DNA from: Triparma columacea
Taxonomy: Eukaryota > Sar > Bolidophyceae > Parmales > Triparmaceae
Direction: 5' to 3'
Length of the DNA: 54,542 bases
NCBI GenBank assembly: GCA_030267965.1
Contig: BRYA01000564.1
Span: 37,794 to 92,335 of the forward strand
The translations under genes and the position numbers were made by a program. This document shows positions 22,808 through 54,542 of the stretch, one piece after another. Positions within the stretch are counted from its first letter, which is position 1. Every line of letters begins with the position of its first letter. Below the pieces are notes generated by a model, which was not told where the DNA came from, did not search any database, and saw only the letters and a program-made list of their open reading frames with translations.

Positions 22808-24694
22808 TCACAGCTTTGGCGTCCAGCACGTTGCCGGGCCATACGGTGACGCCTTATCACATATCCCACTAGAGACAGTGTAGCTGTACGCAGCTTGCCA
22901 TGCAGTCGAATTGAAGAACATGTCTTCGTAGGCCTCTGAGGTGAACCCAGTTGTGTTGGTGACCCATCCTGTCACATTTTGGTTGAAGTCAGTGTTAGCC
23001 GCAAACATGTATCGCATACTTGTAACCTTCTCAACATTCCAGTCTTTCAAGTCTTGGTTGAAAACGGAGCTCGCAAACATATCCCCCATGTCAGTGACAC
23101 TCATGACGTTCCAGCTTCCGATGGGTTGGTCGAAAGAAGAACCTTCAAACATTCCGTACATACTTGTAACCTTCTCAACATTCCAGTCTTTCAAATCTTG
23201 GTTGAAAACGGAGTAGTAAAACATAAACACCATGTCAGTGACATGCGAGACGTCCCAGCCTCCGATTGGTTGGTCGAAAGAAGAACCTTCAAACATTCCA
23301 CGCATACTTGTAACCTTCTCAACATTCCAGTCTTTCAAGTCTTGGTTGAAACCGGAGTTCGAAAACATATACCCCATGTCAGTGACACTCGAGACGTTCC
23401 AGCCTCCAATTGGAAGGTCGAAAGAGGAACCATCAAACATTGAGTACATTCTTGCAACCTTCTCAACATTCCAGTCTTTCAAGGTTTGGTTGAAATCGGA
23501 GTAGTAAAACATATAGCCCATGTCAGTTACACTCATGACGTTCCAGCCTCCAATAGGTTGGTCGAAAGAAGAACCATCAAACATTGCGTACATACTTGTA
23601 ACCTTCTCAACATTCCAGTCTTTCAAGTCTTGGTTGAAAACGGAGAACGCAAACATAAAATCCATGTTAGTGACACTCGAGACGTCCCAGCCTCCGATTG
23701 GTTGGTCGAAAGAGGAAAATTCAAACATTGCGTACATATTTGTAACCTTCTCAACATTCCAGTCTTTCAAGTCTTGGTTGAAACTAGATTCATAAAACAT
23801 ATACCTCATGTCAGTGACATGCGAGACGTCCCAGCCTCCGATAGGTTGGTCAAAAGATGTGCTGTAGAACATTCCGTACATACTTGTAACCTTCTCAACA
23901 TTCCAGCCTCCGATAGGTTTGTTGAAAGGTGTAGATAGGAACATTCCGTTCATCCTTGTAACCTTCTCAACATTCCAGTCTTTCAAGTCTTGGTTGAAGC
24001 CGGACAACCCAAACATATACATCATGTTAGTGACATGCGAGACGTTCCATTCTCCGATAGGTTGGTTAAAAGAGGAAGATCTGTAGAATATTGCGTACAT
24101 ATCTTCAACACTCCCGGTGTTCCAATAACTGATATCGGCGTTGAACGTCTCTCGTGTAACATTCCCTCCGGTTCCACTTCCACAGTACTTGAAAACCAAC
24201 TCTCTCATGCTTGTTACCTTAGCGGTATCCCATGCGTTGATCGTGCCGTACGTTGCAGCGTGAGCATTGTTCCATTTTGCAGGGCTTGCGCACCAGGTTG
24301 ACATGGCCCAGAACATGGTGCCGGCGGTGGTGCTGTTGCCGTCTTTCAACGGCGTGATAGTAGGCCCGGGTTTGGGCGCAGGAGTTGGTGCAGGCGTTGG
24401 GCTCTCAGTTGGCTGCGGGGTTGTGCCCTTGTTGCCTTTCTTGCCTTTCTTACCCTTCTTGGCCTTGTTGCCCTTGTTGCCCTTGTTGCCTTTGTTGCCC
24501 TTGTTGCCCTTGTTGCCCTTGTTGCCCTTAGCAAAGATGATGGTGACACTGTCGCTGATGTCATTACCGCCAAAGGCAAAGTCCTGTAGGCCTCTTGAAG
24601 GGGACCTCAGCGACTTGTCAGTCCCGTGGCTAGTGACGACGAGGAGTACGAAAACTAGCAGCGAAGCAGCGAGCAAAGCGACTATTGACTTCAT
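22808..24694 (-). CDS. Secreted BspA/DUF285-type repeat protein, copy 2 (628 aa)
   Basis: It is a paralogue of the previous gene in the same orientation, with a near-identical signal peptide (MKSIVALLAASLLVFVLLVV), KGN array, Thr/Pro linker, N-terminal cap and C-terminal Cys-containing cap. The repeat array differs in variable positions (for example YMFGLSGFNQ, MFEFSSFDQ) and contains a half-unit step: the block TAACCTTCTCAACATTCCAG occurs at 23887 and again at 23959, 72 bp later, where two KVTSM-type half-repeats adjoin. This points to unequal exchange or gene conversion inside the array. It is probably extracellular; the partner or ligand is unknown. Confidence 0.85.
   Translation of the reverse strand: MKSIVALLAASLLVFVLLVVTSHGTDKSLRSPSRGLQDFAFGGNDISDSVTIIFAKGNKGNKGNKGNKGNKGNKGNKAKKGKKGKKGNKGTTPQPTESPTPAPTPAPKPGPTITPLKDGNSTTAGTMFWAMSTWCASPAKWNNAHAATYGTINAWDTAKVTSMRELVFKYCGSGTGGNVTRETFNADISYWNTGSVEDMYAIFYRSSSFNQPIGEWNVSHVTNMMYMFGLSGFNQDLKDWNVEKVTRMNGMFLSTPFNKPIGGWNVEKVTSMYGMFYSTSFDQPIGGWDVSHVTDMRYMFYESSFNQDLKDWNVEKVTNMYAMFEFSSFDQPIGGWDVSSVTNMDFMFAFSVFNQDLKDWNVEKVTSMYAMFDGSSFDQPIGGWNVMSVTDMGYMFYYSDFNQTLKDWNVEKVARMYSMFDGSSFDLPIGGWNVSSVTDMGYMFSNSGFNQDLKDWNVEKVTSMRGMFEGSSFDQPIGGWDVSHVTDMVFMFYYSVFNQDLKDWNVEKVTSMYGMFEGSSFDQPIGSWNVMSVTDMGDMFASSVFNQDLKDWNVEKVTSMRYMFAANTDFNQNVTGWVTNTTGFTSEAYEDMFFNSTAWQAAYSYTVSSGICDKASPYGPATCWTPKL
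23023..23959 (-). repeat. 144-bp tandem repeats inside BspA-like copy 2, with one 72-bp half-unit
   Basis: Anchors of the repeated block lie at 23023, 23167, 23311, 23455, 23599, 23743 and 23887 (144-bp steps), then 23959 (72-bp step). Confidence 0.9.
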
Positions 24695-31673: not shown

Positions 31674-33871
31674 CTACCTCACATGAGCTTCCATTTGCCT
31701 CTTGATATCTTCGATCATGCCGTCCAGGTTCTTAGTGATAGAATCCGGGTGCCTATTGGTCCCTCCCAGCCAGTCTGGAACGTCCTGCTCACCGTTTGGC
31801 AATATCTTGATCAGCTCCTCCTTGAAGTTGGAAGGCAGGAGCATTTTTGACTTTATAGACAGCGGGAGAACAGGCTTCATAAGCTTCATGAGTGCCTGCG
31901 CCACGGCGTTGCTCTTCGCCAGGAAGAATCCCAGTCTGTCCGGGAACGCCTTCACAAAGAGCTTGGCCATCCCCAAGAAGAATGCCGGCTTCGTCACGGC
32001 CCTCGCATATGGCAGCGTCTGCGAGTCAGCGACGACGGTGAACTGCGTCACGCCCTCGGGCATTACACGGTAGACGGACTCGAAGAGAAGGACGTAGAAC
32101 CTTATCTTCCGGGCGCTGTCGAACCTCCTCCAGTCCATGGCACCGAAATTCTCCCAGAGGATCGGACGACCGGACTTGTCAACACCGTGCCAGTACACGG
32201 CGCCCTCGAGGAACTCGATGTTGAGGTCGGAGTCTTGTCCAGCTGACAAGAGCTGCGGATGAGGCGAAGTGAGAAATTGAATCGCAAAATTAGCAACGGG
32301 GGGGGAAAACATAGACTGCCTTTCGCCAGCCCCCCCCCGCCTCACCTCATCAACGCCGGACTTGCTCCGCCACTCCATGTAGGCTTCGAACTTCTTACGC
32401 GCGTACTCGATGGTACGCCGCTCGCTCCTCTTCTTGCTATTCGGCTGGCTTAATACGGACTTAAGGTATGTGTCCGTGATGATGGATTTAGACTCTGGTA
32501 AAATTATGCTCAGGTCGCTCCTGAGTTTCGAAGCGTCGGCGTCAGGGACCGGGTAGACCATCGAAGTAGCAGACGAGCTCTTGAACTCCGCGGCCGTCGG
32601 CTCTGCTGCTCCGGCAGCTAAGGCTGCTGTGGGAGATTGGGCCTCATCGGTGCTGCTGATGTCCTCGCTGGGGTGATCATTGCAACACATGCACGAGTTG
32701 AGGTGTTCGATAGTAAGCAATAAGAAGGAAAGAGACAAAAAGGCGTGACTCCCTACATTATAACGCTCGCCGCCTTACCTTCTGTTCTTAGATCCACCGA
32801 AGTTGAGGCTAAGCAAAGCAACGGAAGCAGAGGCGATGAAAAATGTTAGAAGGAAGCGGGCAAAGCTTTCGTGAGGGTAGTATAGGGAAACATAATGGTA
32901 TAGGTTGATGGACACAAACGTGAGGGCGAAGTACTGAAGAGAGCGAAATGTTTCATTTTTCTCACGATTTTCGTCATTCGACGACAACGACCTTGACGGC
33001 AGCGACGACGACGTTGAGGAGCGGATCAATTTGGGGCTAGAACTAGCCCTGCGGTGATTGGCAGATATCTTGACATCATTGAATCTATAGTGGACCTTGT
33101 CCTTGATCGGACTGGCCGAGTTTGAAGTGCCAGAACTTCGAAGCAGGTAACCTTCTTGGACCAATTGGCGCAAGATTTCCTCAGCCTCTTCGGGTGAGGA
33201 AGCACTTCCAGAGTCCATGGTGAGGCACTTTACAAATGACCTTCCACTGAACTTCGGCGGCTTGCCTGTCTTTTGGGAGATGGACGCATCGAAGGAACAT
33301 GACAGCTTGAGGTGGCCAATGAGCTCGAGGAGCTCATGGTCCGGCCTCTTGATTACCATTAAGTTATCCCTAGGGGGTGGGCTTATCGATGGGCAGAGGA
33401 GGAAATGAAAAAATAATGTTACGGAGGTTGAGAGGGTGAGGGGTTGGTTTGGGCCTTGTAGCGTGCAAATGGAAGGAGAAAAACACTACGAGTTTAGCAA
33501 AAGAACAAAGGAAGGGTGAAGCTCGGCGGGGGCGTTTCGGTTCAAAACCTTTTAGTGGGTGCAACAGTTGGTGGTGATGCAAAGGCTTGGAAATTTGGAT
33601 CTTTCTGAACTGACCAATTTACCCCCTCCCTTTCTCTCTTTCTCCCAACATTTACCGTCGATTTTACTAGCAGAAAACTCAGAAACAAGTATACCGACCC
33701 TACTGCCCATAGTATCAAGAAAAAGACTGTAGAGTTAGTGTCCAAAGCTAGGAGAGCAAAATCTAACGCTGCTCTAGTTGTATTGCAACTGACAGCCACA
33801 TCTTGGGGTGAGGAGTCCGGGGAGGTGTTCGCAGGCCCGGGAATGGATTGGGAGAACGCACGAGGGCGCAT
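31674..33871 (-). CDS. DEP-like plus CRAL-TRIO (Sec14) lipid-binding membrane protein (604 aa)
   Basis: Exons 33871-33549, 33369-32779, 32667-32346 and 32252-31674 on the minus strand; joins are phases 2, 2 and 0. A TM lies at about 48-70 (VFFLILWAVGSVYLFLSFLL). A DEP-like region lies at about 115-190 (DHELLELIGHL, FSGRSFVKCL, EEAEEILRQLVQEGYLL). A pair of hydrophobic helices lies at about 260-300 (YFALTFVSINLYHYV, FLLTFFIASASVALLSL). The C-terminal CRAL-TRIO domain contains YWHGVDKSGRPILWENFG, TVVADSQTL and LPLSIKSKMLLPSN. Such domains carry phosphoinositides or other hydrophobic ligands between membranes. The first donor is weak (AAAAG|GTTTTG), so the 33871-33549 exon could belong elsewhere; without it the ORF can start at ATG 33359. 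The third intron is introner-like. Confidence 0.7.
32253..32345 (-). mobile_element. Introner-like intron in the CRAL-TRIO gene
   Basis: On the minus strand it opens GTGAGGCGGGGG and closes TCTCACTTCGCCTCATCCGCAG (93 nt). It is divisible by three and lacks stops, so it also reads through as ORF. The protein alignment around it (GVDEV then LLSAGQDSD) is cleaner when spliced. Confidence 0.45.
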
Positions 33872-33970: not shown

Positions 33971-36296
33971 ATGACGGACCAAAAGAAGAGCTCGTTTGAT
34001 TTCGAGTCAATTTCTTTCTCCGTTCCTTTGAAGGGAGGGAGTAAAAAGACGATTATCAATAATGTCTCCGGGCAGGTATGGCGAGCGAAGCGAGCCGTGG
34101 GGGGGGNNNNNNNACCCCCCCCCACGGCTCGCTTCGCTCGCCGCCCTCCAGGTCAAATCTGGGGAGACGCTAGGCGTGCTTGGGCCCAGTGGAGCGGGAA
34201 AGACAACGCTTATGAGCGTGCTAACGCTCGAGGGCTTTGGCGGAATCTCTAGTGGATCCTCGACTTTGAATGGCCATCCGCTTACCCCAACTCTGTTCTC
34301 CTCTCATTGCGTCATGGTATCGCAGGCTGACCACCACTGGGCCTTCCTCACAGCCCGGGAAACAGTCCGTATCGCTGCCCAGCTCTGCTTGCCCCCCAAA
34401 ACTGACATCGACAGTGTAGTTGAGAATATGCTTTCTGATATGGGTCTCCAGATTTGTGCGGACACGAGGGTTGGTAATCAGTTCATCAAGGGGCTCTCGG
34501 GCGGCCAGAAGCGCCGGCTCTCCTTAGCGGTCGCTCTGATCAAGAGGCCCGAGCTGATTTTCCTCGATGAACCCACGTCGGGCTTAGACGCCGCTGCTGC
34601 TGCGTCAATCATGACTTGGTTGAGCAAAACAGCAAAGAGCAGCAACCTTATTGTCTTCTGTACAATTCACCAGCCATCTACCAAGGTCTTCCTGATGTTC
34701 GACAAAGTGATGCTCCTTTCAAACGGCCGCACCGCATACTTCGGCCCCTCTCAGGACGCCGAGTCGTACTTTAATTCCATTGGCCATCAGCTCCCCCCTT
34801 CCACCAACATTGCCGACTTCATGTTGGATCTCGTAAACTCGGAGTTCACAGACAAAGAGCAGGTACTATCGATACTCGACACATGGGCAACGCGCTCGTC
34901 CGCCCCGCTGACTTCTGTCACACCCTTAACGGCCGAAACAGCCTCGCACACGCTCTTCAGCGAGGTCAAGATCCTTCTTCGCCGTCACTTCATCCTCGTC
35001 TTCCGCGATCCCATGGTGTACCTAGGGCGTTGCCTGATGTTTTGTTTCATCTGTTCTTTCTTTGCAGCTATCTACATCAAGAGTAGGGACAGAGTACAGG
35101 AGCAAGTTCTATTCCGCATGGTGAGGGAAGGGAGTGCGTGGGTGCGATGGGGGAAGGCTTTGCCTACCTTATTTCGCGCAAAAAGACAACGCGTACCCCT
35201 ACTCACTCTAACAATCAATACCCCCCTCCCCCCAGTTCTTGATTATGTGGCACGTTGCAGTCCCAACATCCCTGGGCGTCATTGCAGTCTACGTGTACAA
35301 CACAGAGTTCTTCAGTGTGAAGAAGGAGGTTAAGAATGGGTTATACAGGCCACTCTCCTACATGATCGCCAACTTTATCATCCAGGTCCCGTTCATGGTT
35401 ATCCTGTCCATGTGCGCCGTGACCATATCAGGGTACGGGATAGGGAACTGGAGTTTGGAGAACTACCCCCAGATCGTCATTGTATACGGTTGCGGCCTGT
35501 TCGCGTTTGAAAGCGTGGCACAGCTTTTTTCAATGCAATCCGACCCCCTATTGGGAATGCTCAACTTCATGAACGTCTGGTTTAGCGCTTTTCTCTTCGC
35601 TGGCATCATGGTCCCACGGGAGGACGTTGTCTGGCCCTTCAGGTGAGTATTGAGAGATGCTTTGGAGATGACGTCTTCGTCTTTGCGTGTTATCTTTCTT
35701 TGCGGCATTCTATTTTAAGCAATATACTCGCTTCTCATTCTAACATTCACACACGCACACGCAAATCTCATCTCGCACATCTTTTTTAAATTTTTTTTTT
35801 TTTAAGGCTGGCCTGCTACATTCTACCTCTCAATTGGGTCCTTCGCTCCATGGCATATTTAGAATTCTCCGCCGGCACGTACGATGGAGCCGAGCTTTGC
35901 ACAGACACTTCAGACCAGGCGTGCTTCTTCCACGTGGACGGGGACGGTAACCAGATCATTCCGGGCTGGACTTGCGGTGAGAGCAACAAACTTCAATGTA
36001 TGGGAAGAGAGGGTATTCAGGTTCTCGACTCTATGGGAGCAAACTACAAGAGTCTCACCTCTGAGAACAACGTGGCCAAAGACATTTCTATTTGCCTCCT
36101 AATCACGGCAGTTTGTAAGGTCGGGTACATTTTGTTGATGAGGCACAAGTGCCTAATGGCGTCGAAAATTCTCTCTCCTGAGGAAGCTCACAAGGCGGCG
36201 TCGGCTTCGAAAAGCAGTTCAGGGTTGGGGGAGTTCGAGGAGAGAAAGAAAAGCACCCAGAAAATGGTTAACGTCACGGATAATAGCAGGCTCTAG
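33971..36296 (+). CDS. ABCG/White-type half ABC transporter (656 aa, 4 exons)
   Basis: Exons 33971-34075, 34152-35120, 35236-35642 and 35807-36296; joins are phases 0, 0 and 2. An N-terminal ATPase domain precedes one membrane domain, the reversed order typical of ABCG. Walker A is GPSGAGKTT (about 45-53), the Q-loop region is MVSQADHHW, the signature is LSGGQKRR and Walker B is LIFLDEPTSGLD, followed by the His loop CTIHQPS. Membrane helices follow from LGRCLMFCFICSFFAAIYI, with the ABCG-like NGLYRPLSYMIANFIIQVP and a Cys-containing extracellular loop before the last helix. Length fits a half-transporter, so it should dimerise. The substrate cannot be read; lipids or sterols are common in the family. 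Intron 1 is a long hairpin with an assembly gap. Confidence 0.9.
34076..34151 (+). mobile_element. Hairpin intron with assembly gap in the ABCG gene
   Basis: The intron GTATGGCGAGCG...CTCCAG contains GGCGAGCGAAGCGAGCCGTG and, after seven N (34107-34113), its exact reverse complement CACGGCTCGCTTCGCTCGCC. The arms also hold G- and C-runs. The arm core is the CTCGCTTCGCTC block found at other intron 3' ends. The true intron length is unknown because of the gap. Confidence 0.7.
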
Positions 36297-37895: not shown

Positions 37896-40800
37896 TTAGC
37901 ATATTTCGTACCTCCCTGTCACCTCGCTGAAGCAAACAATGTCGCTTGCTTTAAGGGTTTTTCGGTTCGATGATGTGTCGGGGAAAGCGGCAGAGAGAGC
38001 GTCATTCACAATTCTCTTAAACCTTGGAATGTCCTTTACTCGAATAGCAACCTCCTTGTTGGGAATTCTGCATCGAATGTCTGCAGTGCACGCTGCAGAC
38101 GTCCATCCCTGGAAAATGTCTGAATAATTGGGCTCTGTCTCTCCTTCGGACTCAGAGGCCAGGTAGCGGTAGTGGTGCAGTCCGGAATTGGCGGAGAGCC
38201 TCTGGAAAATGGGATGCTCAAAGCGCTCAGAGCTGATTTCAATAACACTAGTACCTGGCGGCATGAACATAGTGTTGACGAGCGCCGCACCGTGGATGCT
38301 GATGACCAAAGTCGACTTAGCGACCGCAGTCATCTGCTCTTCGAAGGGTGTTTTCTCATCAAAGGATACAACCTTGATGCTAGAATTAAGGTTAGGAAAT
38401 AATTTGGAAAGTACATCACCAATCGAATTCACGACCTCCTCTTGATTCAGCAATTGCCGGCCCTTTCCAACCCCGGGCTCTCTCACGAGAAGGGTGACCA
38501 GAGGTGAATGCCCAGGGGGAGAGTAGGGGGAACCTTGCAAGAGTCGATCCTCGATTTCGAAAGAAGATCTGCCCTCGTAATAGCTAGAGACTCGGGGGTA
38601 GGACTTAGCGACGAGTGAACGGAGGGATTGGGCATCAATTACCCCACCGACGAGCTGGATTGATGGACTGACGACGGTCAACTTTTCCGCACACGCAGTT
38701 TTGGACGAGAAAAAGGTGGAATCCAGAATTGGCGACGAGGCGGTGACTAAATTCAGGAATGATGACTGCCAATCTGTGAAAGAACTGACGTTTCTGTCGG
38801 TTTCAAACGTCACGTCGAATCGATCATGCCTTAAGGACGCTGTCAAGGCAGGAATCGCGCAGTGCCATGCAAAATGACACGGGTTTGTGGTCCCCCCGTC
38901 GATATCTGGAGGTAAGAGGAGGGCCGACTCATAGCTATCAAAGCTTTGGTACAATTCTTGATCATTTGAGATCTCTACGATCACGTTCGAGGAGCGGGGG
39001 AACATCACATCTGGTTTAGGGAGGGGCGGAAAGGAGACGGAAAACACTGGGATAGCTAGACGTGAGTCGAACTCATGGTTTCCCGAGACATACACGGGAG
39101 GAGAATCCGTCAGACGAGGAAAAATAGTCACCTTCCGAACGCCTCCCTCAATCTTGCTGACACAAGCCTTGAAAGGCAACGTGAGCATTTCCGTGCCATC
39201 GCCAAACGTCGTTGTTATAGACGACGACGTCTTTCCCCCAATTTGTTCCTTATCATCGCAAATAGGGTTGCATGTTTCCGCCAAGAGGCGCCCTCCATTT
39301 GAATCGTAATCGAGTTCTTCACACCCGATTAGTTGCCTCACTGTTTCTATCTCTTCAAGGCTTATTTTGAAGTCCCCCTCTGAAGCATCTACGAGGAGCG
39401 AGTGTGCGGTGAGCGAAGCAGGCCTCAAGAGTATACTTTTACCGTTGTGAATTTTGGCATAGTGCACCCAATCTCACCTTCTCCGACGCAGTTGCCCTCC
39501 CCGGGAATTTGGACAAGGAAAACTCCCCTCAACCTCGCGATTTGAAACACCTCCCAGTCCTCCGTTCGGCAAGGTGGCATGATCTCAACGTACAGCGAAC
39601 CCGGCCGCATGAAGGCCAAACCGGCCGCGTGGGCGCCCCTGGGAGCGATCACGACGTCAGCCGATCCCCACAAACTAATTTGGTCATGCATTGTCATGTC
39701 CCCAAAGATTGGCTCTGTAACGTTGAGGCCGATTTCTCCCATTTCGCCGCAGAATTTCGTTCTCACCAAAAGATCCTTCAGCTGATTATAGTTCCCCAGC
39801 CTCCTTCTTGGTGCGTCTTGACGGCCGTAGATGGAGACTTGAATTTCTTTCCCGGACCTAACTGGAAGATCTGTGTTTTTCACCTTCGCTGCGTCCGCGA
39901 AGAGGCTGATAGCTTTGGCTTGCTTGGATGCTGTCGTATCCATAACGAGGCCGTCTCTGTCAAGATCTCCCGGAATAACAATTTCAGAAAAGCATCGCAC
40001 AGTATCGACATCGTTGTCATATTCGACAATATCAGGTTTCTGTTGGGAGTAGGAATCCTTTAAAGCGAGATAAAGCCAAGCCGCCAATGGTTCACATCCC
40101 CCCCCGCTAAATTCCTTTAGTCCGCTCGACCGCATGCTTTGGTGCAGCACCGCATCCTCAGTTGGTGTGCAACTTGTATTTATCATTGACCAGCGCTTCG
40201 GAATGACCAGCCTTTCGAACCCCCCCCCAACCCTCTCGGTAACAAAGTAGGCAACCTCCCGCGCGAAATCGCTAAATGCATGACCGAAGTTCAAGAGAGT
40301 ATGGGAGTCGTGCACAAATAAAGTTGACCCGGTCTCCAAATCAGCAGGAAGCTTCTCAGCCCGTTTCACCTTGAGTTGACGAGGTTGACAAAATGCGTCC
40401 AAGCACTGCTCGCCTATATTGTATCCCCATGGCACGGCGTCTGGAACAATTCTCATTTCGTCTCCAACAACAATAAGGCTTCCCTCCCCGTCGACGCAAG
40501 CATTTTTGAGACTGGAGACCGACCTATAAACGTTTATCTCGGGTGCGTTTAACATGGTGATGGCTATCGGCTCGGCAAGCTTGAAGCATAGCAGGATATG
40601 ATTGAGGTACTCTCCAGCTTCGGCACGCACAACTTCAGTCTTTTCAATGTCGAGAACAAGTGGGTTCCCCGCCTCCCTAGAGAACCGTTCAATATCTCGT
40701 CGCCACCGGGCGGGCGTTTTGCACCCAACATGACCGTCCCCATGTTGACTCGGCATTGCCGCCGAGAAGAGCAGACGGCTCGTGCTCGATTTCCGAAGAG

Positions 40801-41962
40801 CCCTGGCTAGCCAGCGAATCAGGAGGGGATGCTTAGATGGATGCACATGTTCGGCAGCTTCAAAGGACATCACAAGCTCAAAGTCGCCCGAGAGGAGCGT
40901 TGGATCGGTGCCTCTCGTAGTCGTTTCTATGGGAGGAGGTCCGGACAAATAGTCTGTAGAATCCAGTGTTGCCCCAGGAAATAGACAGTGCTGGCTCACT
41001 AGCGGCTCGACGGTCACCCGTCGACCAGCCCCTTCCGGGAAGGCAGCTGCGTACATTCCAACAGAACCACCAAAATCAACCACGCCTGCGGGCGGGCAAG
41101 TGAGGAAGAGAGAGCGAGTGCATGAGAAGCCAGCGGCAGGACAAGCGAAGCGACGAAGCTGAAGGATCATATCATTAGGCACCTCACAGATGTCGCTGCG
41201 CTGCTCCTGCCCTCGTTAGATCTCACCTTTCCCTGTACTCGCAACAGTGGGGAACAGTGACGGTAAGGCCGCCCTGAAGGACGCCTGTTCCGAAGCACTG
41301 TACGTTACACACCCCCCACCCCCGTCGCCCTCTTGCTTCCATAGCCACGCCCCGCCAACATCATCCGCACAGCTTCCTCGTTCCCCTCGGCTGCTGCAGT
41401 TCTTGGAGGAATCCTTGGTTTCCTCCTCATCGCCGACGCGCTCCCACCACTCTTCTTCGGAGTCCTGGGGATGCATCCAAACATAAGCTCCGCCGGCTGT
41501 TTGGTCGCCCGCGCTCCAGAAGCAGCACGCAGGTCCACCCGCAAACTTGGGCTCACCCGCCCCCTCAAAACCTCTGCACTCTACCTCTCCCCAATACCAG
41601 CACTGGTTCTCAACCGCCCGCCACAAACTTTCAGAAACCGTTTTTGTTCCAACGGGAACGCCGCGCTGTGCAGCCTCAGCGGCCATCATATTGGCAGCCT
41701 TGTCTATGAGATCCCTTGAGACTATGTCATAGTTATTCGGCTTCCACGTCGCCAGAAAGATTCGTCCATCGTCGGAAGTGAAGGGAATAGAAACCCCTGA
41801 CACCTCCCTGGCTTTATTATAAACCTTGTAAGACGTAATTTGAGCTGCCACAATGTCATCACGATCCTCCCATGTTATTGTTGTTGGGCCTGCTTCAACG
41901 CCCAATGGTCCGAAGACAGCACAGTTGATCGCGACCAATCCAAGCAAACGCATACAAGCCAT
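37896..41962 (-). CDS. Secretory-pathway protein with methyltransferase and two GT61 glycosyltransferase domains (1278 aa)
   Basis: Exons 41962-41227, 41085-39478 and 39388-37896 on the minus strand; both joins are phase 1. ATG 41962 gives a signal peptide (MRLLGLVAINCAVFGPLGVEA). Residues up to about 245 form a Trp/Cys-rich lumenal region of unknown type. A class I SAM-methyltransferase follows (VVDFGGSVGMYAAAF, then FELVMSFEAAEHV, about 246-440). A first GT61 domain has NFGHAFSDF and SADVVIAPRGAHAAGL, and a second has VISIHGAALVNTMFMPPGTSVIEI. GT61 enzymes (plant xylosyl- and arabinosyltransferases, animal EOGT) add sugars to glycoproteins or wall polysaccharides in the ER or Golgi. The fusion suggests a made-and-methylated glycan; the donor sugar cannot be read. 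Some acidic catalytic positions may be lost in one copy. Confidence 0.75.
39389..39477 (-). mobile_element. Introner-like intron 2 of the GT61 gene
   Basis: On the minus strand it opens GTGAGATTGGGTGCACTATG and closes CCTGCTTCGCTCACCGCAC...CTCCTCGTAG (89 nt), with the CTTCGCTC block near the 3' end. Confidence 0.5.
41086..41226 (-). mobile_element. Introner-like intron 1 of the GT61 gene
   Basis: 141 nt. On the minus strand it opens GTGAGATCTAACGAGGGCAGG, and later carries GTCGCTTCGCTTGTCCTGCC, partly complementary to GGGCAGGAGCAGCGCAGCGAC near the start. Ends TTGCCCGCCCGCAG. Confidence 0.45.
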
Positions 41963-42515: not shown

Positions 42516-45500
42516 ATGGACGTGGAGAATGAACCCCGAGGGGGGAGCGGAGAGGGCGTAGAGGAGACTAATATGCCACAAGTCAGTGCCTCAGTGTCTG
42601 AGAATCGACTCTGCGAACCTAATATAGGCAGTGAGAGGACAACTGTCTCAACATTGGGTATTGATAGGCCTCATGGAGACGCCGGACAAGGTGAGTTTCG
42701 CGTCGGGGGTGGAGTTGGAAGAGCGCTTATTGTATATTCCAGTGGATAAAGGAGAAGTGTTTGAGGAGCATGTTGAAATGTTATCAAAAATCTCAAAAAA
42801 ACATCATATCGCCAACACCTGCAGACTCTGAAAATGATCAGGGGGACGCCAGACGAGGTGAGTAAGCGTCGGGCGCTCGAGGAGGAAAAGAACATTTTTA
42901 TACTTCAGTAGAGGGCCGGAGATGTGTCGGAGGACAAGATGAAGTTTGCCACTTTTGCTCACTTTTCCCCTCTTTGTCGTTTCCTCTGCAGCATCTGAAA
43001 TGTCTCACGAGGACGCAGGACGAGGTGAGTTGTGCGTTGAGCACCAGATAAGGAAAAATGCGTTTTAAGCGGAACACGCGGAGCCGTTCGCAGAGGGCCT
43101 GGCCCTCGGCGTCGAGCTCGACGGGCGGCGGCCACGGCGCGCCGGTCTGCGGTGACCGCATCGGGTCCGTCTCCGGCGACTGCATGGGTTTCGTCTGCGG
43201 CGACCGCATGGGGCGCTTTTGCGGCGACGGCATGAGTTCCGTCTCTGGCGACCGCGTGGGGCGCTTGATATGCTACACAGAAACGAGGAGCACGCGTTGA
43301 TATCTCTTCATGTTGACTAACAAACACCATAGTCGCCATTACCGCAGACTCTCAAAACGGTCACGAGGACGCCAGACAAGGTGAGTTGTGCGTTGAGAGG
43401 CGGAAAAGAAAAATACATTTTAATACTCTAGGGGAGAGCGGGAGAGTCGCGGGAGGAAGCGTTGAAACTTTGTAGTTTTTTATCACCGCCTGCGTGCGGA
43501 ACGCGCGGAGCCGTTCGCGGAGGGCCTGGCCCTCCGCGTCGAGCTCGACGGGCGGCAGCCACGGTGCACGCACGCGTGCGCCGGTCTGCGGCGACCGCAT
43601 GGGACCCATCTCCGGCGACCGCGTGGGTTCCGTCTGCGGCGACCGCATGGGGCGCTTCTGCGGCGACCGCATGGGGCGCTTCTGCGGCGACCGCATGGGT
43701 TCCATCTCCAGCGACCGCGTGGGGCGCTTGATATGCTACACGGAATCGAGGAGCACGCGTGGAAATCTTTTAATTTTACTAACAAACACCATAATCGCCA
43801 TCACCGCAGACTCTAAAAATGGTCACGAGGACGCGGGACGAGGTGAGTTGTGCGTTGAGAGGCGGAAGAGAGAAAGGACAATTTAATACTCTAGGAGAGA
43901 GCAGGAGAGTCGCAGGTGGACACGTTGAAACTTTGTATCTTTTTCTCACTTTTACAACAATGTTGTCCCCTTCACAGTCTCTAAAAGCTCTCACGAGGAT
44001 GCTAGACGAGGTGAGTTGGCGTAGTCGTGTAGGCGAAGAGTAGAGTATTTTGATTTTAGAGGAGAGGGCTGGGAAGCCGTTCTAAGGGAGTTTCAGATTT
44101 TGCCTTTTTTTGACCCTTTTCCACCAAAAATTCCCCCAAAACCACCCCCAGAAATTTCTGGCCATCCTCATCTTCAACCTGGATTTGAAAATGTCATCGC
44201 CATAATTTCCGACGATCCCTTAAACGGAGGAATAGTCCGTGAGAACAATCTAAGCGTTATACCGCCTGCTGTCGGGTGCGCGATTCCCGGCCAAATGCCA
44301 GTCGACCTTGCGACTGTCAGCCACGCCACTGCCGCTCAGCCCACATTAGATCCTGACAACACCATTAGGAACAAAGACCCCCCGCAGTCCCTCTCTAGCC
44401 CCGATCACGCTTCTTCCACTACGCAAGGGCAAGTTGATATCGATTACGCAGCACTTGGACACGAACAAGGCAAACTTGTGAAGCTTCTTGAGGAGAGAGG
44501 AGCAGTTGAAGGCCTCATCGACACTTCCACCGGCGATGATGTGAAAGCTTTAGGGCTCGCTGGTGTTTTCCACAACGAGCGCGACAAGATCGTTGACTTT
44601 CTCCTCACCGATTGTGAGCAGGGCAAGTTCCGAAGGAAGACCCTCCAGGAGTATGACGAAAAGGAAGGAGACACTCACAGACTCATCTGCTGGCAGCACT
44701 ACGGCAGCGGTGATAAGTTTGTCGAATTTCTCCTCGACGTCAAAATTGTCTCTCCCAACGAAACGACGAACATTATGGAGTTGGCACCCCTTGATGAGGA
44801 TGAACTTTCTGATGAGGCAACTGCGATGCTTGTCGAAATTCTAGCATCAATAAAGACCAAGACTGTCAAGCGAGGTGTCATTAAGGGCAAGCTCAGCTTC
44901 ACTGATTTTGGGTTTGGACAAACTGCAGTCACCATGGTGGGAACTCTTAAGGCAGAGGAGAGAGCAACAGAGACGAAATCAGAAGTTGATGTTCGCACAG
45001 TCAAAAGCTTTAAATCTGCTAAGATAAACATTGGAAGGAAAATAAGCAGCATCAGCAGTGTCAAGAAAGGAGCTTACAAGGATGTGTTTGTTTCATGGAA
45101 GGGAATTCTAAATGAAGTCATGAAGAAGTGCAGACAGCCTGCAGTCATTGACGAGCGGAGGAAAAGACACTTTGTGGAGGAGATCATGCCGAGGGCACCG
45201 CCTCTGACAATAGAGGAGGACGGAATGCTGGAAACTGTTGCAGGGCTGGAGGAGAAACTCTACAAGAAGGGAAAGAGAGTCAAGGGGACACTGAAGGAGG
45301 GCATTGACAAGTTCCTGTGGAGAGAGGGGGACAATGTGTGGGCAGCCTTTGGGGTCATTGTGGACAAGTCGGCAAAGGATATGCTGGCAGAGCAATTTCT
45401 GCTTGACACATTTGCGCGATCTGAGAAACAATTCAAAAATAATGGGAACTTACCAAGGGTTATCAGGAATGATTTTGAGGGAACGAGGAGCATGCACTAT

Positions 45501-48500
45501 CATTTTGGCGTGAAGGTCCCTGCCGCCACCAATCGACTCTTTGAGAATTGGTTTGTGTGGAAGGAAGTCAAACTTGAGAATGGCCTGACTTCATACATGT
45601 TAGCTTTTGTGCCACTGACAGAGTACCCTGGAGGAGGCTTCAAGGACCTCAGTAAGGAAGGGTTTGTGCTAGCAGAGGCTACAGGTGCCTACTTCTTCAA
45701 TGAGATTGCTCCAAATGTCTGCAGGGTGATGCGTATTCAGACAGTTGATCTGCATTTCAAAGGCCTTCAAAAGACACTGATGGACAATGCTATTGACTAC
45801 CTTACAAAGAGTCAGCTTGTTGAGGCCAACAGGCTGCAGGAGAAGTTCAGGAGGAACGGGAAGGAGGTTGATGCTGAGGTCAGGGGGGCCTTGGTGGAGA
45901 GGATGAGGGAGGGCGTTGAGTTGGAGGAGGACCAGAAGAAGGTGTTTGAGGAGTTGGAGGCGCTTTCTGGCGGGGAGGATGAAGAAGGGTGGGGGCCTGT
46001 CAAGTCACCTTATGTAGGAGTGAAGATGGAGATCAAATATAGACAACAGATGAAGGGAGAGATAAGCATATTACTAGGCAGAGCTCTTGGTGAAGCAGAC
46101 TGCACTGCAGAGGAGGCAGCTGCTTGGTACTTTGAGCTCTGCAGCAGGGAGAGGATGGCTATTGACAGGGAGGAAGGGAATCTGGCTAGATTAGAGATAC
46201 CAACATACAAGGGTAAACCCAACGAGAAAGTGGTTGCAACTGTGAAGAAATTACCACAGTTCATAAGTAACCGAGAGTTTGTCTTCAAGGTAATACTGAG
46301 AAAGGACACACAAAAATCCATTTCCGTTGCTGTTTGGCCTCTGAAAGATAAGATTGATTACGGTGGGAGTGCTGGGAATTTTTTGAGAGGAACAACTCAA
46401 GCCATCTTTATTGCAACTAACATTGAAAATGTTAGTGGAGTTCCTCAGTGCAAAATTGAGCTAGTGCAACATGCTGATTTAGCGGGCCACTTACCTAAAT
46501 ATCTTATTGAAAAAAAGACACCGAGTACCCTGGGTGTAGTTGCTGAAATAAGAACATCTTTCAATAAAGATGATGAGGTTGACAAAGCTGCATTAGCGTC
46601 CCTTGCCAACATCATCAAGAGTGAGCCCCAAGATTATACAGATGAGGAGAAGGTTGCAATCAGGAAGGGAAATGAATTCTATGAGAAGTGCAAGGCGGAT
46701 AAGAACTTTGATGATCTGAAGAGTCCTGATGAGAGAGTCAAGATGAAGCTAGTTCTTGTTGACGGGACAAGCAATGGGACTGGTGTTGCCACTACTGTAG
46801 TTGATGCGAGTGTAGAGGAGTGTGCAGCAAATGTAATAGTCGCTCTAGACAGCAGGGAGAAGGTTAAGAAAGCTAAGAAGAGAGGAGTAACCTTCTTGAA
46901 AGTCATCAATGTGAACCCCCATACTCTCTACTACATCACAACGAGGGAATTCGGTCTCCCTGGTTTTGTTCCACGTGATGTAAGGAGTAACATTACCTGG
47001 TTCAAGCAAGATGACGGCAAATTAATTATTGATTTTGCAGATACAGATAAACTTCAGGTAGACTTTCCAGTGAAGATTGGGAATGTTTTATTGAAGGTAC
47101 ACACAGTCTGGGCATTTGAGCCGCTTGACCCCATTGGAGGTGTGCCACAAACATCAGTGACCCTAACAACAAATATAGACCTTGGTGGTGTCATAGACTT
47201 TGTAGTTTCAATCATCAAAAACACAATGGTCCCAAAGTTTCTTGCACAAGTCTCAGACTTGAGGAAGAAGTTTGACAAGAGCAAAGAGATCGGTGCCTTC
47301 AAGAGGCAGCAGATCATTGCAAAACTTGATGAGATTGCAATTGAGGGGGCACCAGGGATTCAAAGCCACTTTGACGAGATTGTGGGAGCTCAAGAGATCA
47401 GCAGTGCGTTGACTGGACAGACATTGATAAAGGCAGAGAAGGGAATTGGATGGGGGAAGACTAGAATAACTGTGAGAGCATCTAATGAAGAAGTTGCAGC
47501 ATTCTTCTGGGGCATTACAAAAGGAGTTGAATCCCAGCTTGAGCTTCACAGAATTAACAACAAGACACTTGTAATCACAGTCAAACACGAAGGGCATCTC
47601 ACAGCTGTAAGGTTCTCAGAGGTTGACCAGATGAAGACAGAAGTAGAAATGATGACTAGACATAAGGGTTTAGGAAAAGCTGCCAGCAAACAGAGTGTAA
47701 CTAAGGACCTGAGCATGGCAACTGATGCTGCTCACTACTTTGACAACCTTCTGAAGAGCACAGAAGCAGGGGAACAGGATGGGAGGAGGTTTGGGGAGCA
47801 GCTGATGGAGAGAGTGAAGAAAAGGAATATTGGGGACAGTAAAGTAGAGGTCGTGAGGCAATTTATTGCTGCCAATAGGACACTGGGAGAGATTACAGAG
47901 CAGCATGGTTTCATAAGAACTATGCTGTATGCTGTGATTATGAATAAATTGAAAAGGAGAGCAACAAATGAGGGAGAAGATAAGAGTGAGGAGGGAGCCA
48001 GGGGGTGGGAGATAGGGAGTGCAATGACAGCAGTCATGTTGACCACAGCAACTGCTGCTCATGCTGTAGATGAGTGGGCACATCAATTTACTGAAGTGCA
48101 AGAAGTCATGAATGAACAAGCATGGTTAAGGCCCATGCTTGAGGAGATAGTTATGAAACTATTTATGAAGTCCAAATTAGGCTTGAAAGCAAGGGTCACT
48201 GTTGGTGCTGCCACAAGCATGCTTGATTTGGTGACCGATGTGTATGTGACAAACATGTTTTGGAGAGATAAGAAGTATGGATACTTTAACGCATCTTTGG
48301 CTAGTTTGGTAGCTTCAATTGGGTTGCAGATATTTTTTGTTTGGGGAACAAACAGGAAGTTGGGGATGTTGAGGGTGCTTAGGGAGGGGTTTCCTATTTT
48401 GATTGGATTTAAGCCTGCTGTTGATGCTTACAGGGTGGCAACTGGAGCAAAGCAGGAGGTTGGGGCTACAGCTGACCCAATGATGGAAATGACAGTTATG

Positions 48501-51500
48501 AGATGCATTGAGATGTTTGCTGAGGCAATCCCTGGAGTGATCATCCAACTCATGGCTATAGCAACAAGTGACAAAGAGGTTGGAACTTCAGCATGGCTTT
48601 CAGTTGCAGTGTCAGCTATCACAACAGGCTTTGCCTCTGCAACAATTAGTTATGACTTTGACACCAACCCAGTGAAGAGAAAGCAAGTGCCTGACTTTTA
48701 TGGGTATGTGTCTGCAAATGCCACCAAAAGATCAATCATATTTGTGTCAATGATGCTCTTTAGTGCAGGCATGCTTATATTAAGGTGCATGACAATAGTT
48801 GTGTTAGGTCTACTTGGTGGTAGATGGATCTTTCTCTATGTTGGTGCTGATATGCTTCTGTACTTGTTGGTGAAGGTCTTAAGAGGAGACTTTTGGTATT
48901 GGCTTCCTGCAGGAGGCAATGTAGAAATAGTGAGTAGCCTTTTAGCTAGAGTACTGGTGAAGGTAGTCACAGACTTTACATCAATTGTGCAGTTTAGACA
49001 CCCTTATGATCTTGGTGGAATGTATTGGATGTTTGGATTTGTTTTGACAATGGGAAGTCTTCCAGTAGCTATTATTCTAACTGAAAGAGAAGATATTGCA
49101 GACAATGTGCTTAAATTTGCATGGAAAGCAGCTGGATTAGTTATACCATTTGCTGTTGTGTCTTTTGTTATCTTTCTCTTGAGTATAGAGAAGAAATATT
49201 TTGGCACCTTCTTTAGTTTGCAAAGGGGTAAAGACTTCACTGTAAGGCTTTTCAAAGAGGCAATTATAGAAGACTCAAAAGCTGAAGCAATACTGAACAA
49301 CTCAAGACATCATTGGAAGTCAATTGAAGAGGAAGTGAGAAGCTGGGTGGAGGCAAATTGGGAGAGATGGGAGGAGGAAAAGCCATCTTGGTTAAGTGAT
49401 GCCTGGAAAGCTAGAATCCCAGTTGAATTCATTCCAACTAAAGAAAACAGAAGGAGGGAGAGTGTTAGGAGAGCAAGTGTTGGCTTGGACAATGGAGGCG
49501 CAATGATTGCTTCACATGCTGTGAAAGATACTATACAAGACTATGCAGGTTTAGATCCTAAACAAATAGGAAAGTTGTTGGGTGAGCAACTGTTGGTTGC
49601 AATAAGTTTCAGGAAGAAGGGAATGACAAAGGAGGAAGCTGTCAGGTCATTTATAGGTTTAAACTACGTTCTGAGACAGGCTGCAGAGAAACATGTGTTT
49701 GTCACACCAATGCTTGGCGCTGTTGTCAAGAATAAGCTGTGTAAGTTGAGGAAGGTAGAGGGTAAGGCTGTAGATCTGGGAGATAAGGAAGGAAGGGAGA
49801 TTGGAGAGTCTCTAGCAAGGAGTTTGGCTATCAATACTCAGCCAGTTGCTGCTGTAGATGCCTTCATTTTAAATTTCTCTGCTCTACAGGAGCTTGATGA
49901 GGAGTATGAATGGTTCAGACCTATGCTTGAAACAATTAGCTACAGGCTTTTGGAGGAAGTTCCTTGGGGGTTGAAGGCGAGAGTGACTGTTGGTGCTATT
50001 ACTAGTATGGTAGATTTGCTGACTGATGTGTATGTGACGTACATGTTTTGGGATGATAAGAAGTATGGGTACTTCAAGGCTTCTTTGGCAAGTTTGGCAG
50101 TATCAATTGGGTTTCAGATGCTTTTTGTTTGGGGTCAAAACAGAAAGTTGGGGATGAAAAGGGTCTTAAGGGAATTGTTTCCTATTTTGGTTGGGTACAA
50201 GCCTGCTGTTGATGCTTATAGGGTAGCAACTGGGGCCAAACAAGAGGTTGGGACTGCACTTGAACCAATGATTGAAATGACATGTATGAAAATGGTTGAG
50301 ATGTTTGGTGAAGCAATCCCAGGTGTGATAATCCAACTTATGGCTATTGCAACCAGTGACAAAGATGTTGGAACTTCAGCATGGCTTTCAGTTGCAGTGT
50401 CAGCTATTACAACAGGCTTTGCCTCTGCAACAATTAGTTATGACTGGGACACAGACCCTGCAAGGAGAGAACAGGCACCAGACTTCTATGGTTATTTACC
50501 AGCAAAAGCAAGCAAGAGAACAGTAGTGTTTGTTTCTATGTTGCTATTCACTGCAGGAATGCTTCTAATAAGATGTACAACAATAATTCTTCTGGGGTTA
50601 ATGGGAGGAAGTTGGGCCTTTCTCTACATTGGAGCTGACCTTGGCCTGTATTTTCTGGTTAAGATATTGAGAGGAGACTTTTGGTATTGGATTCCTGTAG
50701 GGGGGAAACTAGAAATTGTGAGTAGCATCATTTCCAGAGTCATAGTAAAGATCATTGTGGACTTCACTTCAATTGTGCAGTTTAGACATCCTAATGAGGT
50801 AGGAGGAGCCTATTGGTTGTTTGGTCTTTTGTTGACAATGGGAAGCCTACCAGTGTCAATCTTTATAGCTTCACCTCATGTTGATGAGCGAGCTACTGAT
50901 ATTGCATCATCAATTGTGAAGTATTTTATATTAATAACTACCTTATGCTTTGCTGTCTTCTTTTTGAACATTGAGATGAAGTACTGGCATACCTTCTGGA
51001 GTACACAGAAATCAAAGGAATATTCTATGGCATATTTTCTTGAAGGAGAAAGTGACAAAACTAAGTTTGAAGTTTTAGACAGATCTAGGAAACATTGGGT
51101 CTCAATTGAAGGAGAAATTAAGAAATGGGTTGAGCTAAATTGGGCTAAATGGGAAGCGGAGAAACCAGAGTGGTACTCTGATGTATTGAAAGCTAGGGTA
51201 CCAGTTGAGTTCATTCCAGCAGATGGAGATGCTAGAAGAAGAGAGAGTATTAGGAGATCAAGTGTTGATGCTGAAGCTGAGGGTGGTCTAGCAGGTGCTT
51301 TAAGAGCAAGTATTAGGAGAGCAAGTGTTGGAGGCGCTGATGGTGGAGATATTATAGGAGTAGGAGGTGGAAAGGTTAACACAAGCAGTGTTGTTCCGAT
51401 CGAAGTTGATGCCTTCAAGAGGCAGCAGATCATTGAAAAGTTTGAGGAGATTGCAATTGAGGGAGCATCAGGGATTGAAAGTCACTTTGACGAGATTTAT

Positions 51501-53873
51501 GGAGCTCAAGAGATCAGTAGTGCATTTTCTGGACAGACATTGATAAAGGTAGAGAAGAGATTTGGGTGGGGGAAGACTACAATAACTGCGAGAGCATCCC
51601 ACAAGGAAGTTGCAGCATTTTTCTGGAATGTTGAAAGTCTTGCCATGAAGGGGTGGGAGATTGTGAGAAAAGTCACAAAGAGGCAAGACTTTGAAATAGA
51701 GTTAACAACAACAGAGAAAGGCTTTGGGAAGCGTGAGTTGGAGTACTATTCGAGGATGAGCGTGTTCAGGGTAGATAACACGACACTGGTGATTACCTGC
51801 AATCCTACAACATCGGCAGCACCACTTGTGACTGCCACTTGGAGATTCTCCAAACTTGGGGATAAGAAGACCAAGATTGAGCTTATGACTCAGGTTGAGC
51901 ATAGAGGGGGCAGCAAGAGTATGGTGGAGACTAGCTTAAAGAGGCACCTTGAGGCAGGGAACAAAGCTGCAATCTATTTTTCCAATCTTCTATGTAGTGA
52001 AGAAGCAGTAGAGAAGGATGGAAAGTTTTTTGGTGAAGCACTCATGCAGAGGGTTGAGAAGAGAGAGAAGAAGAAGAGCAAGGATGACACAGTGTCTGCT
52101 TTTACAAATGAAAACTGTGCACTGAATGAGGTGGTTAAGAAGTACCCTTGGTTTGCGATCTTGTTGAATCGTGCAGTACTTGGAGAGGTTAGCAGGAATC
52201 ATTCATTGTCAATGAGACTTGAAGAGGTAGGAGAGGAAGAGGCCCTTGTTATTGGGAACAACCTTACTCCATGCTTGAAAAGTAGGAAAGTTGTGGAGGC
52301 AGGTGTCGACCAGTGGCGTCTGCAGAATGCTGCTGTGGGGGAGCTCTTTGAGGAGTATCCTTGGATGAACGCCATGTTTGTAGCTGTTGGGTATGGCGTA
52401 GTGAGCAGAGCTCCTTGGGGGCTTAAGATGAGAGTGACTGTTGGTGCAATAACAAGTATGACAGATTTGTTGACTGATGTGTATGTGACGTACATGTTTT
52501 GGAGTGATAAGAAGTATGGGTACTTTAAGGCATCTTTGGCAAGTTTGATGGTTTCAATTGGGATTCAAATGCTTGCAGTTTGGGCACAAAACAGGAAGTT
52601 AGGGATGTTGAGGGTGATTAGGGAGTGGCTTGCTATTTTGATTGGCTTTAAGCCTGCTGTTGATGCTTACAGGGTAGCAAAAGGAGAAAAACGAGAAGCT
52701 GGACAAGCAATAGATACACTGACAGAGTTAAGTTTCATGAAAGGGATTGAGATGTTTGCTGAAGCCATACCTGGAGTGATTATCCAACTTACGGCTATTG
52801 CAACAAGTGATGGAGAGATTGCAGATGCAGCTTGGGTCTCACTTACAGTTTCAGCACTGACAACAGCCTATGCATCAGCAACTATCAGCTATGACTATGA
52901 CACTGACCCAGTGAAGAGAGAACAAGTGCCTGACTTCTATGGGTATGTGCCTGCAAATCCCACCAAAAGGTCAATCATATTTGTGTCAGTGATGCTCTTT
53001 AGTGCAGGTATGCTTGTGATACGGAGCATGACAATAGTTGTGTTAGGGCTCCTTGGTGGCAAATGGGTCTCTCTCTATGTTGGGGCTGATCTTGGTCTAT
53101 ACTTGATAGTGAAGGTCTTGAGAGGAGACTTTTGGTATTGGATTCCTGCAGAAGGCAATGTAGAAATAGTGAGTAGCATTGTAGCTAGAGTGATGGTGAA
53201 AGTTGTGGGAGACTTCACTTCAATTGTGCAGTTTAGGCATCCTAATGAGGTTGGAGGGATGTATTGGATGTCTGGAATTGTGTTGACGATGGGAAGTCTT
53301 CCAGTAGCTATAATTATAGCTGAAAGGGAAGACGTTGCAGACCATGGGCTTAGATTTGCATGGAAAGTAGTTGGAATATTTATACCATGTACAGTCTTGT
53401 TGTTTGCTGTATTTTTCTATAACATTGAGAAAAAATATTGGGGCACCTTCTTGAACTTTCAAAGGGGTAAGGACTTAACAGTGAAGAATTTCAGAAAAGG
53501 AAAAGAGGATGCAACAAAGGCAGTTTACACATTGCAGATATCAAAACATCACTGGAAGACAATTGAAGACGAAGTGAGAGCTTGGGTAGTGGCAAACTGG
53601 GAGAGATGGGAGGATGAGAAGCCAGAATGGTTTGATGACGCTATGAGAGCGAAAGTGCCAGTTGAGTACATTCCAGAATCTGGAAATGCAAGAAGGCGAG
53701 AGAGTGTAAGGAGAGCAAGTGTTGATGCTGAAGCTCAGGGTGGTCTAGCAGGTGCTTTTAGAGCAGGTATTAGGAGAGCAAGTGTTGGAGGCGCTGATGG
53801 TGGAGATATTGTAGGGATAGGAGGTGGGAATACTAAAGTAAGCAGTGTAGTGCCAGATGAGGATGGAGAGTGA
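42516..53873 (+). CDS. Giant START-like / Xkr-like multi-span protein with microexons (3353 aa, 7 exons)
   Basis: Exons 42516-42690, five 33-nt exons (42825-42857, 42992-43024, 43348-43380, 43810-43842, 43978-44010) and 44152-53873. Every junction is phase 1 (G|GTGAGT). The microexons give an 11-residue repeat, consensus DSxNxHEDAxR. Then come START-like lipid-binding regions: at least two at about 220-650, one near 800, one near 1000-1150, one at about 1200-1320 and one at about 2560-2720 (WGKTTITARASHKEVAAFFW). Three membrane modules start near 1455, 2052 and 2868, each with DLVTDVYVTxMFWxDKKYGYF, PAVDAYRVA, EMFAEAIPGVIIQL and LRGDFWYWxP. The first parts resemble XK/Xkr scramblases (DxxTD, then ExxPQ-like). 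Each module ends with a HHWKxIExEVRxWV..WERWE block and an RRASV tail, likely basophilic-kinase sites. Function in lipid transfer or scrambling is inference. It is the last gene before the telomere. Confidence 0.8.
43070..43305 (+). repeat. GC-rich 24-bp minisatellite insert in microexon intron, copy A
   Basis: Located in the intron between microexons 2 and 3. A core CGGAGCCGTTCGCAGAGGGC...GAGCTCGACGGGCGGC is followed by degenerate 24-bp units (TGCGGCGACCGCATGGGGCG). On the minus strand the units read as an 8-residue peptide repeat MRSPQxxP next to PPPVELDAEGQALCERL. Four or more units are present. Confidence 0.75.
43490..43760 (+). repeat. GC-rich 24-bp minisatellite insert in microexon intron, copy B
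   Basis: Located in the intron between microexons 3 and 4. It shares core and units with copy A but has one or two more 24-bp units and a 12-bp difference after the core (GTGCACGCACGC). It ends GATATGCTACACGGAATCGAG like copy A. Confidence 0.75.
48170..53860 (+). repeat. Three diverged copies of the membrane-module coding unit
   Basis: The block GGGGGTTGAAGGCGAGAGTG and its variants start near 48178, 49968 and 52417, followed by parallel coding for about 1.4 kb each. Some stretches are nearly identical at DNA level between copies 1 and 2 (about 48595-48655 and 50385-50445). The longer step between copies 2 and 3 is due to a START-like domain at about 51410-51990. Confidence 0.85.
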
Positions 53874-54354: not shown

Positions 54355-54490
54355 TGTGTGTGAAGGTTGAGTGTGTAAAGGTTGAATGTGTAAAGGGTGT
54401 GAAGGGTGTAAAGGGTGTAAAGGGTGTAATGAGTGTAAGGGGTGTGAATATTGTAAAGGGTGTAAAGGGTGTAAAGGGTGTAAAGGGTGT
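54355..54490 (+). repeat. Telomere-adjacent GGTGTAAAG repeat array
   Basis: An array of 9-10 bp steps (GGTGTAAAG and variants GGTGTGAAG, GGTGTAATGA) runs directly into the telomere repeats. It is T/A-variant from the canonical unit. Confidence 0.8.
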
Positions 54491-54542
54491 GGGTTAGGGT
54501 TAGGGTTAGGGTTAGGGTTAGGGTTAGGGTTAGGGTTAGGGT
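54491..54542 (+). repeat. Telomere: TTAGGG repeats at the chromosome end
   Basis: GGG followed by eight perfect TTAGGG units and a final T. The G-rich strand reads outward to the window end, as expected at a right chromosome terminus. Confidence 0.97.

Follow-up and report, generated by a model that had tools for sequence, protein, structure and literature searches.

To our knowledge, the lipid transfer proteins and scramblases that are known to work in pairs are separate proteins. A lipid transfer protein adds lipid to one leaflet of a membrane or removes it, and is thought to require a scramblase partner, according to a study that also proposes this division of labour for VPS13A and XK (PMC9436381). 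A partnership between lipid transfer and scrambling is likewise reported for Osh6 and Ist2 (PMC12617493). Here we describe a giant gene of Triparma columacea (Stramenopiles, Bolidophyceae, Parmales) in which the same proposed division of labour would fall within one polypeptide. The carriers differ as well, VPS13A being a bridge-like carrier whereas START units are the feature of the protein described here.

The separate parts of this protein have familiar counterparts. It has the helix-grip fold in common with START and StARkin proteins (STARD4, StAR, CERT, STARD10, PCTP), but holds four units and a truncated one, followed by membrane modules. The XK-related scramblases (XKR4, XKR8, XKR9; Pfam PF09815) are alike in Pfam score, fold, the DxxxD of TM1, the ExxxE-x2-P of TM3 and the serine of TM4, but here there are three modules per chain, fused to START and helical (HEL) domains and carrying RRx[ST] tails, with 10-16% identity in structural alignments. 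Expanded START multi-domain proteins have been described in the same clade, the Parmales (Ban et al. 2023, PMC10328945); the main text of that paper uses neither 'telomer' nor 'scramblase'. In chromosome-end location, copy number and variable build the genes recall subtelomeric families such as those of Plasmodium, but they encode a membrane protein of lipid-handling type, under purifying selection and with no variant-antigen evidence. Among the papers covered by our search, none joins 'START domain' with 'XK-related' or 'Parmales' with 'telomere'. Literature searches on algal subtelomeric families, single-chain lipid transfer and scrambling, algal XK proteins and subtelomeric START proteins listed no paper on the family.

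The window, i.e. the whole stretch of 54,542 nucleotides that was analysed, reaches to the right-hand end of contig C498, which is 92335 bases long. The giant gene is the last long frame before the telomere repeats that close the window, and it is transcribed outward, which bears out the subtelomeric position given by a first-pass annotation of the letters alone. We propose, with a probability of roughly 55%, that this telomere-adjacent nuclear gene encodes one protein, an N-terminal START array followed by three tandem XK modules, in which carrier and scramblase would be coupled in cis. We favour this reading because of the two folds, the conservation of residues and the known pairs that act in trans.

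The largest part of the gene is one uninterrupted open frame (44100-53873, + strand) of 3257 amino acids counted from the first TTG, or 3282 counted from 44025. A predicted seven-exon GT-AG model of 10062 nt and 3353 residues, with its sole stop at the end, starts at 42516, where the first-pass annotation had already placed the start. Its claim of a single frame of 9.7 kb with START and Xkr-like parts also holds, exon 7 being intact over 9722 nt (Table 1). Each of the five microexons encodes one 11-residue repeat. The array (42825-44010, + strand) is embedded in repetitive introns whose tandem units measure 24 nt and 48 nt, and the microexons look like mutual copies. Similar microexons lie 5' of five of the 19 other contig-end ORFs searched (L019, L022, L027, L028 and L034), some of the upstream stretches being short (<450 nt for two of the 19).

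Table 1. Features of the giant gene and its protein, in positions of the window
Feature	Positions	Strand	Basis
Exon 1 (predicted), start codon (ATG) and N-terminal peptide	42516..42690	+	Open in frame, donor GTGAGT at 42691; inferred gene model
Five 33-nt phase-symmetric microexons (predicted)	42825-42857, 42992-43024, 43348-43380, 43810-43842, 43978-44010	+	AG/GTGAGT borders, frame kept on joining
Exon 7 (predicted), 9722 nt, holds all recognised domains	44152..53873	+	
S1, conserved unit without established START link	44436..44939	+	Own HMM
S2, START-type unit	45102..45791	+	Own HMM and hhalign profile comparison
S3, START domain	45981..46586	+	Fold
S4, START domain	46698..47309	+	Fold
S5a, truncated START unit ahead of XK1	47286..47957	+	Own HMM match in two pieces, summed length below that of S5b
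HEL1, helical linker domain	47898..48161	+	Own HMM
XK1, XK-related membrane module, TM1 included	48162..49502	+	PF09815 stretch and own HMM
HEL2, helical linker domain	49686..49949	+	Own HMM
XK2, XK-related membrane module	49950..51290	+	PF09815 stretch and own HMM
S5b, START domain ahead of XK3	51402..52193	+	Fold
HEL3, helical linker domain	52140..52406	+	Own HMM; helical in structural model
XK3, XK-related membrane module bearing conserved acidic residues	52407..53747	+	
C-terminal tail past XK3 with RRx[ST] motifs; similar tails past XK1 and XK2	53748..53870	+	
Telomere repeat GGGTTA, 8.7 copies	54491..54542	.	Ends the window

Repeats of GTGTAAAGG (54388-54490) separate the gene from the telomere, and a complement-type repeat (CCTTTACAC) opens other contig ends, e.g. 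L034. Upstream, the gene adjoins a pair of adjacent glycosyltransferase 61 domain proteins (37896-39467 and 39425-41182, - strand; E = 4.7e-13 and 2.5e-9). A CRAL/TRIO domain protein (31674-32738, - strand) and an ABC transporter (34062-35333, + strand) lie at a distance of roughly 20 kb from this chromosome end. Two further neighbouring genes are alike in build (19958-21925 and 22808-24694, - strand): in both, a collagen-like stretch of low complexity, containing 9-nt tandem repeats of TGCCCTTGT, precedes Pfam DUF285 repeats (E = 4.8e-238 and 1.2e-183). A repeat period of 144 nt was also seen.

By our own HMMs, the domains run in the order S1 to S4, truncated S5a, HEL-XK1, HEL-XK2, S5b and HEL-XK3. 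The protein holds four START units, S2, S3, S4 and S5b, in addition to the truncated S5a. The helix-grip fold was found for S3, S4 and S5b by fold comparison, and S2 was assigned by comparing profiles. The first-pass annotation had spoken of several START-like domains, and these four stand, whereas S5a is truncated and S1 could not be established as START: its hhalign values stay at or below 8.4% (units cut by position) and 31% (iterated profiles), and it has no Pfam START match. With units cut by position and aligned over 12-20 diverse relatives, S2, S3, S4 and S5 match one another at 98.0-100% (S2-S3 99.1%, E = 1.5e-18; S3-S4 100%; S4-S5 99.0%). With 11-14 close paralogues (13 of the 18 contig-end ORFs were used), S3-S4 reaches 98.7%, whereas S2-S3 drops to 11% and S5b does not exceed 23%. 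An earlier hhalign comparison of S2-S5 with iterated profiles was partly circular, these having absorbed one another's members. In iterated profiles HEL matched S5 only (99.5%), probably because the S5 profile extends into HEL.

In the whole protein the Pfam START model (PF01852) finds one weak stretch (E = 0.028); S3 alone scores E = 4.3e-4 and 20.1 bits, below the cut-off of 22 bits, and S2, S4 and S5b, each queried alone, give no START match. For START, the profile check suggested by the first-pass annotation stays under the cut-off for the window's own units and succeeds for the family, where 10 of 27 homologues match START at E <= 0.001 (best 2e-20) and some paralogue frames exceed the cut-off, unlike the copy studied here. 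Family profiles compared with solved structures found StAR, STARD10 and PCTP (E = 0.025).

Homology of the membrane modules to Xkr, at first read from motif layout and topology, is now supported by a PF09815 score of 59.3 bits (cut-off 24.8) over three stretches, which overlap direct repeats of ~300 nt that are 79-82% identical. At E 0.001 the same model matches 12 of the 27 homologues. The family profiles also found XKR9 among the solved structures; a PDB sequence search with the whole protein as a single query gave no match. The proposed comparison with Xkr structures returned the same fold over the membrane domain, at the identity given above. In our first division of the protein, TM1 of each XK module closed the HEL segment; we therefore shifted the HEL/XK borders to include it in XK.

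A shared fold does not establish function. Scrambling is known for some Xkr members, and XKR7 gave no detected PtdSer (PMC10938166 and PMC10495444). The XK modules may accordingly be anchors, channels or some other transporter, with the START array alone acting on lipids, but we regard this as very unlikely, since acidic residues required for Xkr4 activity are retained (PMC10495444). In Xkr4, D123 and D127 of TM1 and E310 of TM3 coordinate calcium, helped by T307, S311 and S339 (PMC10495444). The family columns that match D123, D127, E310 and S339 hold D in 32 of 32 rows, D in 32 of 32, E in 30 of 32 and S in 31 of 32. T307 is not kept: 31 of 32 rows carry M, L, I or V at this column, and the remaining row has a gap. 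S311 is kept in about half (S 16, A 13, other 2, one gap). These positions were assigned via profile alignments to XKR9 and the numbering in PMC10495444, not by superposition. Equivalents of D123, D127, E310 and S339 are all present in every one of the 41 complete modules of the window and 18 contig-end ORFs. A stricter residue pattern was missed by two modules of L035, which deviate outside the calcium-site residues. L035, at the left end of contig C305, is a paralogue frame with four XK modules and S5 as its only START unit.

Behind every XK module lies a basic tail, with at least one RRx[ST] in 41 of 41 cases and at least two in 39. These tails make up 6.4% of the sequence and host 108 of the 134 RRx[ST] motifs, compared with 3.7 expected after tail shuffling. 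We take the motif to be a kinase site of the PKA-type consensus. XKR8 is switched on when its tail is cleaved or phosphorylated (PMC10938166). Among Xkr proteins, a caspase site in the tail is a feature of XKR4, XKR8 and XKR9 only. Several single-XK relatives lack RRx[ST] (e.g. P0006, P0019, P0020, P0045, P0049, P0054 and P0055), and a tail switch is therefore either not ancestral or not universal.

Is the fusion itself real? Three sequence searches gathered 61 homologues (P0002-P0062). With thresholds of at least 100 residues for a START unit and at least 70 for XK, both occur in one chain in 48 of the 61, and 37 of these 48 have an XK match of at least 380; ten homologues are without a qualifying START unit and three without XK. 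Among hits with an organism name there was no relative outside Bolidophyceae/Parmales (one name ends at 'Bolidom'), in a search limited to relatives that share short words. One could suspect that the frame or the assembly fuses separate START and XK genes: the assembly is a draft in many contigs, and public T. columacea relatives, annotated as 'hypothetical protein', have models of 1094-1606 aa, a length that most frames here exceed, e.g. the TrCOL_g854 model of 1570 aa compared with a frame of 1974 aa on C8. The chance of this is very small for the copy studied here, the frame of which is uninterrupted. At the level of the family it is refuted by the 48 single-chain homologues, by intact frames, 18 of 20 contig-end frames spanning 1997-2987 aa without X, and by fusions among transcript-derived relatives.

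All four homologues from transcript collections are fusions, each with one XK module; none of them was identified as the window's copy or as a multi-XK gene. Because these are all single-XK, the family probably descends from a fusion with one XK module, the multi-XK form having arisen later. The 18 other contig-end ORFs hold between one and four XK modules and differ in START content. Two of the 20 contig ends, L017 and L021, were left out of the domain, dN/dS, residue and tail counts, which cover the remaining 18 and the window.

Relatives of the gene are concentrated at contig ends. In the 37.85-Mb assembly of 789 contigs, 112 matches to the Pfam XK-related model were scored, and 110 of them point outward and lie no more than 10 kb from a contig end. 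All 68 minus-strand matches are this close to a left end; of the 44 plus-strand matches, 42 are this close to a right end, the other two being C470:4815 and C133:39666. With XK3 of the window as query, 101 of 101 scored matches obey the rule, for which uniform placement would give at most ~21% (789 contigs, 10 kb each, one orientation). Both searches together yield at least 143 outward ends on at least 135 contigs (144 contig-strand combinations minus the internal C133), and copy numbers are lower bounds, with 119 of 580 candidates scored for the Pfam model and 101 of 747 for XK3. Contig ends cannot simply be equated with telomeres: of 20 ends, 8 begin with long CCCTAA arrays and 12 do not. 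Among the 17 telomere-repeat sites listed, four hold a properly placed scored XK (C12, C52, C62 and C71, left ends), a number that, with few candidates scored, is compatible with the family being present at most telomeres or at a minority of them. The gene belongs to a subtelomeric multigene family, with many related copies near chromosome ends.

Pairwise codon comparisons indicate that purifying selection acts on this family. Median dN/dS is 0.263 for XK, 0.324 for S3, 0.323 for S2, 0.287 for S1 and 0.225 for HEL (150, 86, 111, 88 and 138 usable pairs, from at most 150 drawn per unit); the S2 and S3 sets may include neighbouring START units, and high dS (XK 0.97, HEL 1.28, S3 2.2) makes the ratios rough. 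The averages lie well below 1, with no diversifying signal at that level. With XK dN/dS at ~0.26 and 100 of 101 scored matches free of stops, a selfish or decaying repeat is unlikely. XK modules of one gene share a mean identity of 0.697 (28 pairs); for modules of different genes the mean is 0.698 when they hold the same position (166 pairs) and 0.697 when they do not (174 pairs). We saw no position-specific ancestry of XK1, XK2 and XK3, as identity is ~0.70 whatever the gene or position. Such uniformity agrees with exchange among chromosome ends, without proving it, and as modules are ~70% identical within and between genes, module counts are not independent.

The number of outward ends with scored copies, the variable XK number and START content, and the equal identity within and between genes would also suit a diversifying telomeric repertoire like the variant surface families, serving surface presentation or variation (recognition, virus resistance) with lipid movement secondary. 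We think this improbable: XK shows no diversifying selection in pairwise averages, the calcium-site residues are nearly invariant, and passive spread could account for subtelomeric copies.

Under the reading that we prefer, a carrier and a scramblase coupled in cis, the protein may work as follows. In Xkr proteins both termini lie in the cytosol. By this topology both ends of each XK module would be cytosolic, and every START domain would face the cytosol. The START domains would carry single lipids to or from the leaflet they face, and the XK modules would equilibrate lipids across leaflets, allowing lipid movement without leaflet imbalance. Neighbouring XK modules might pair into a dimer within one chain. 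The most likely control would be calcium gating at the TM1-TM3 acidic cluster, together with phosphorylation of the RRx[ST] tails.

Alternatively, the START domains may detect a lipid or sterol and gate the adjoining XK scramblase modules accordingly, with no bulk carrying. In many relatives the last START unit immediately precedes HEL and the XK module, and the truncated S5a suggests that not all units have retained the capacity to carry. Four START units exceed the need of one switch, however, and XK2 has no START unit immediately ahead of it. With so large an array, a truncated S5a and an XK2 that no START unit immediately precedes, there is room for a sensor role, which we hold to be a minority reading but the least unlikely of the rivals considered.

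At least 143 contig ends are a surprising location for a lipid-handling protein. Why would end-to-end exchange favour such a gene? It is possible, if speculative, that the chromosome ends form a recombining stock of one-chain machines for lipid transfer and scrambling. Subtelomeric exchange would reshuffle their START and XK parts, variants might move or expose different lipids, and calcium and a kinase might gate internal XK dimers or trimers. In pairs of separate proteins, the coupling of carrier and scramblase is difficult to probe. Here both kinds of domain stand in one chain, in a ratio that varies among copies, and the idea of coupling would be testable in one purified protein.
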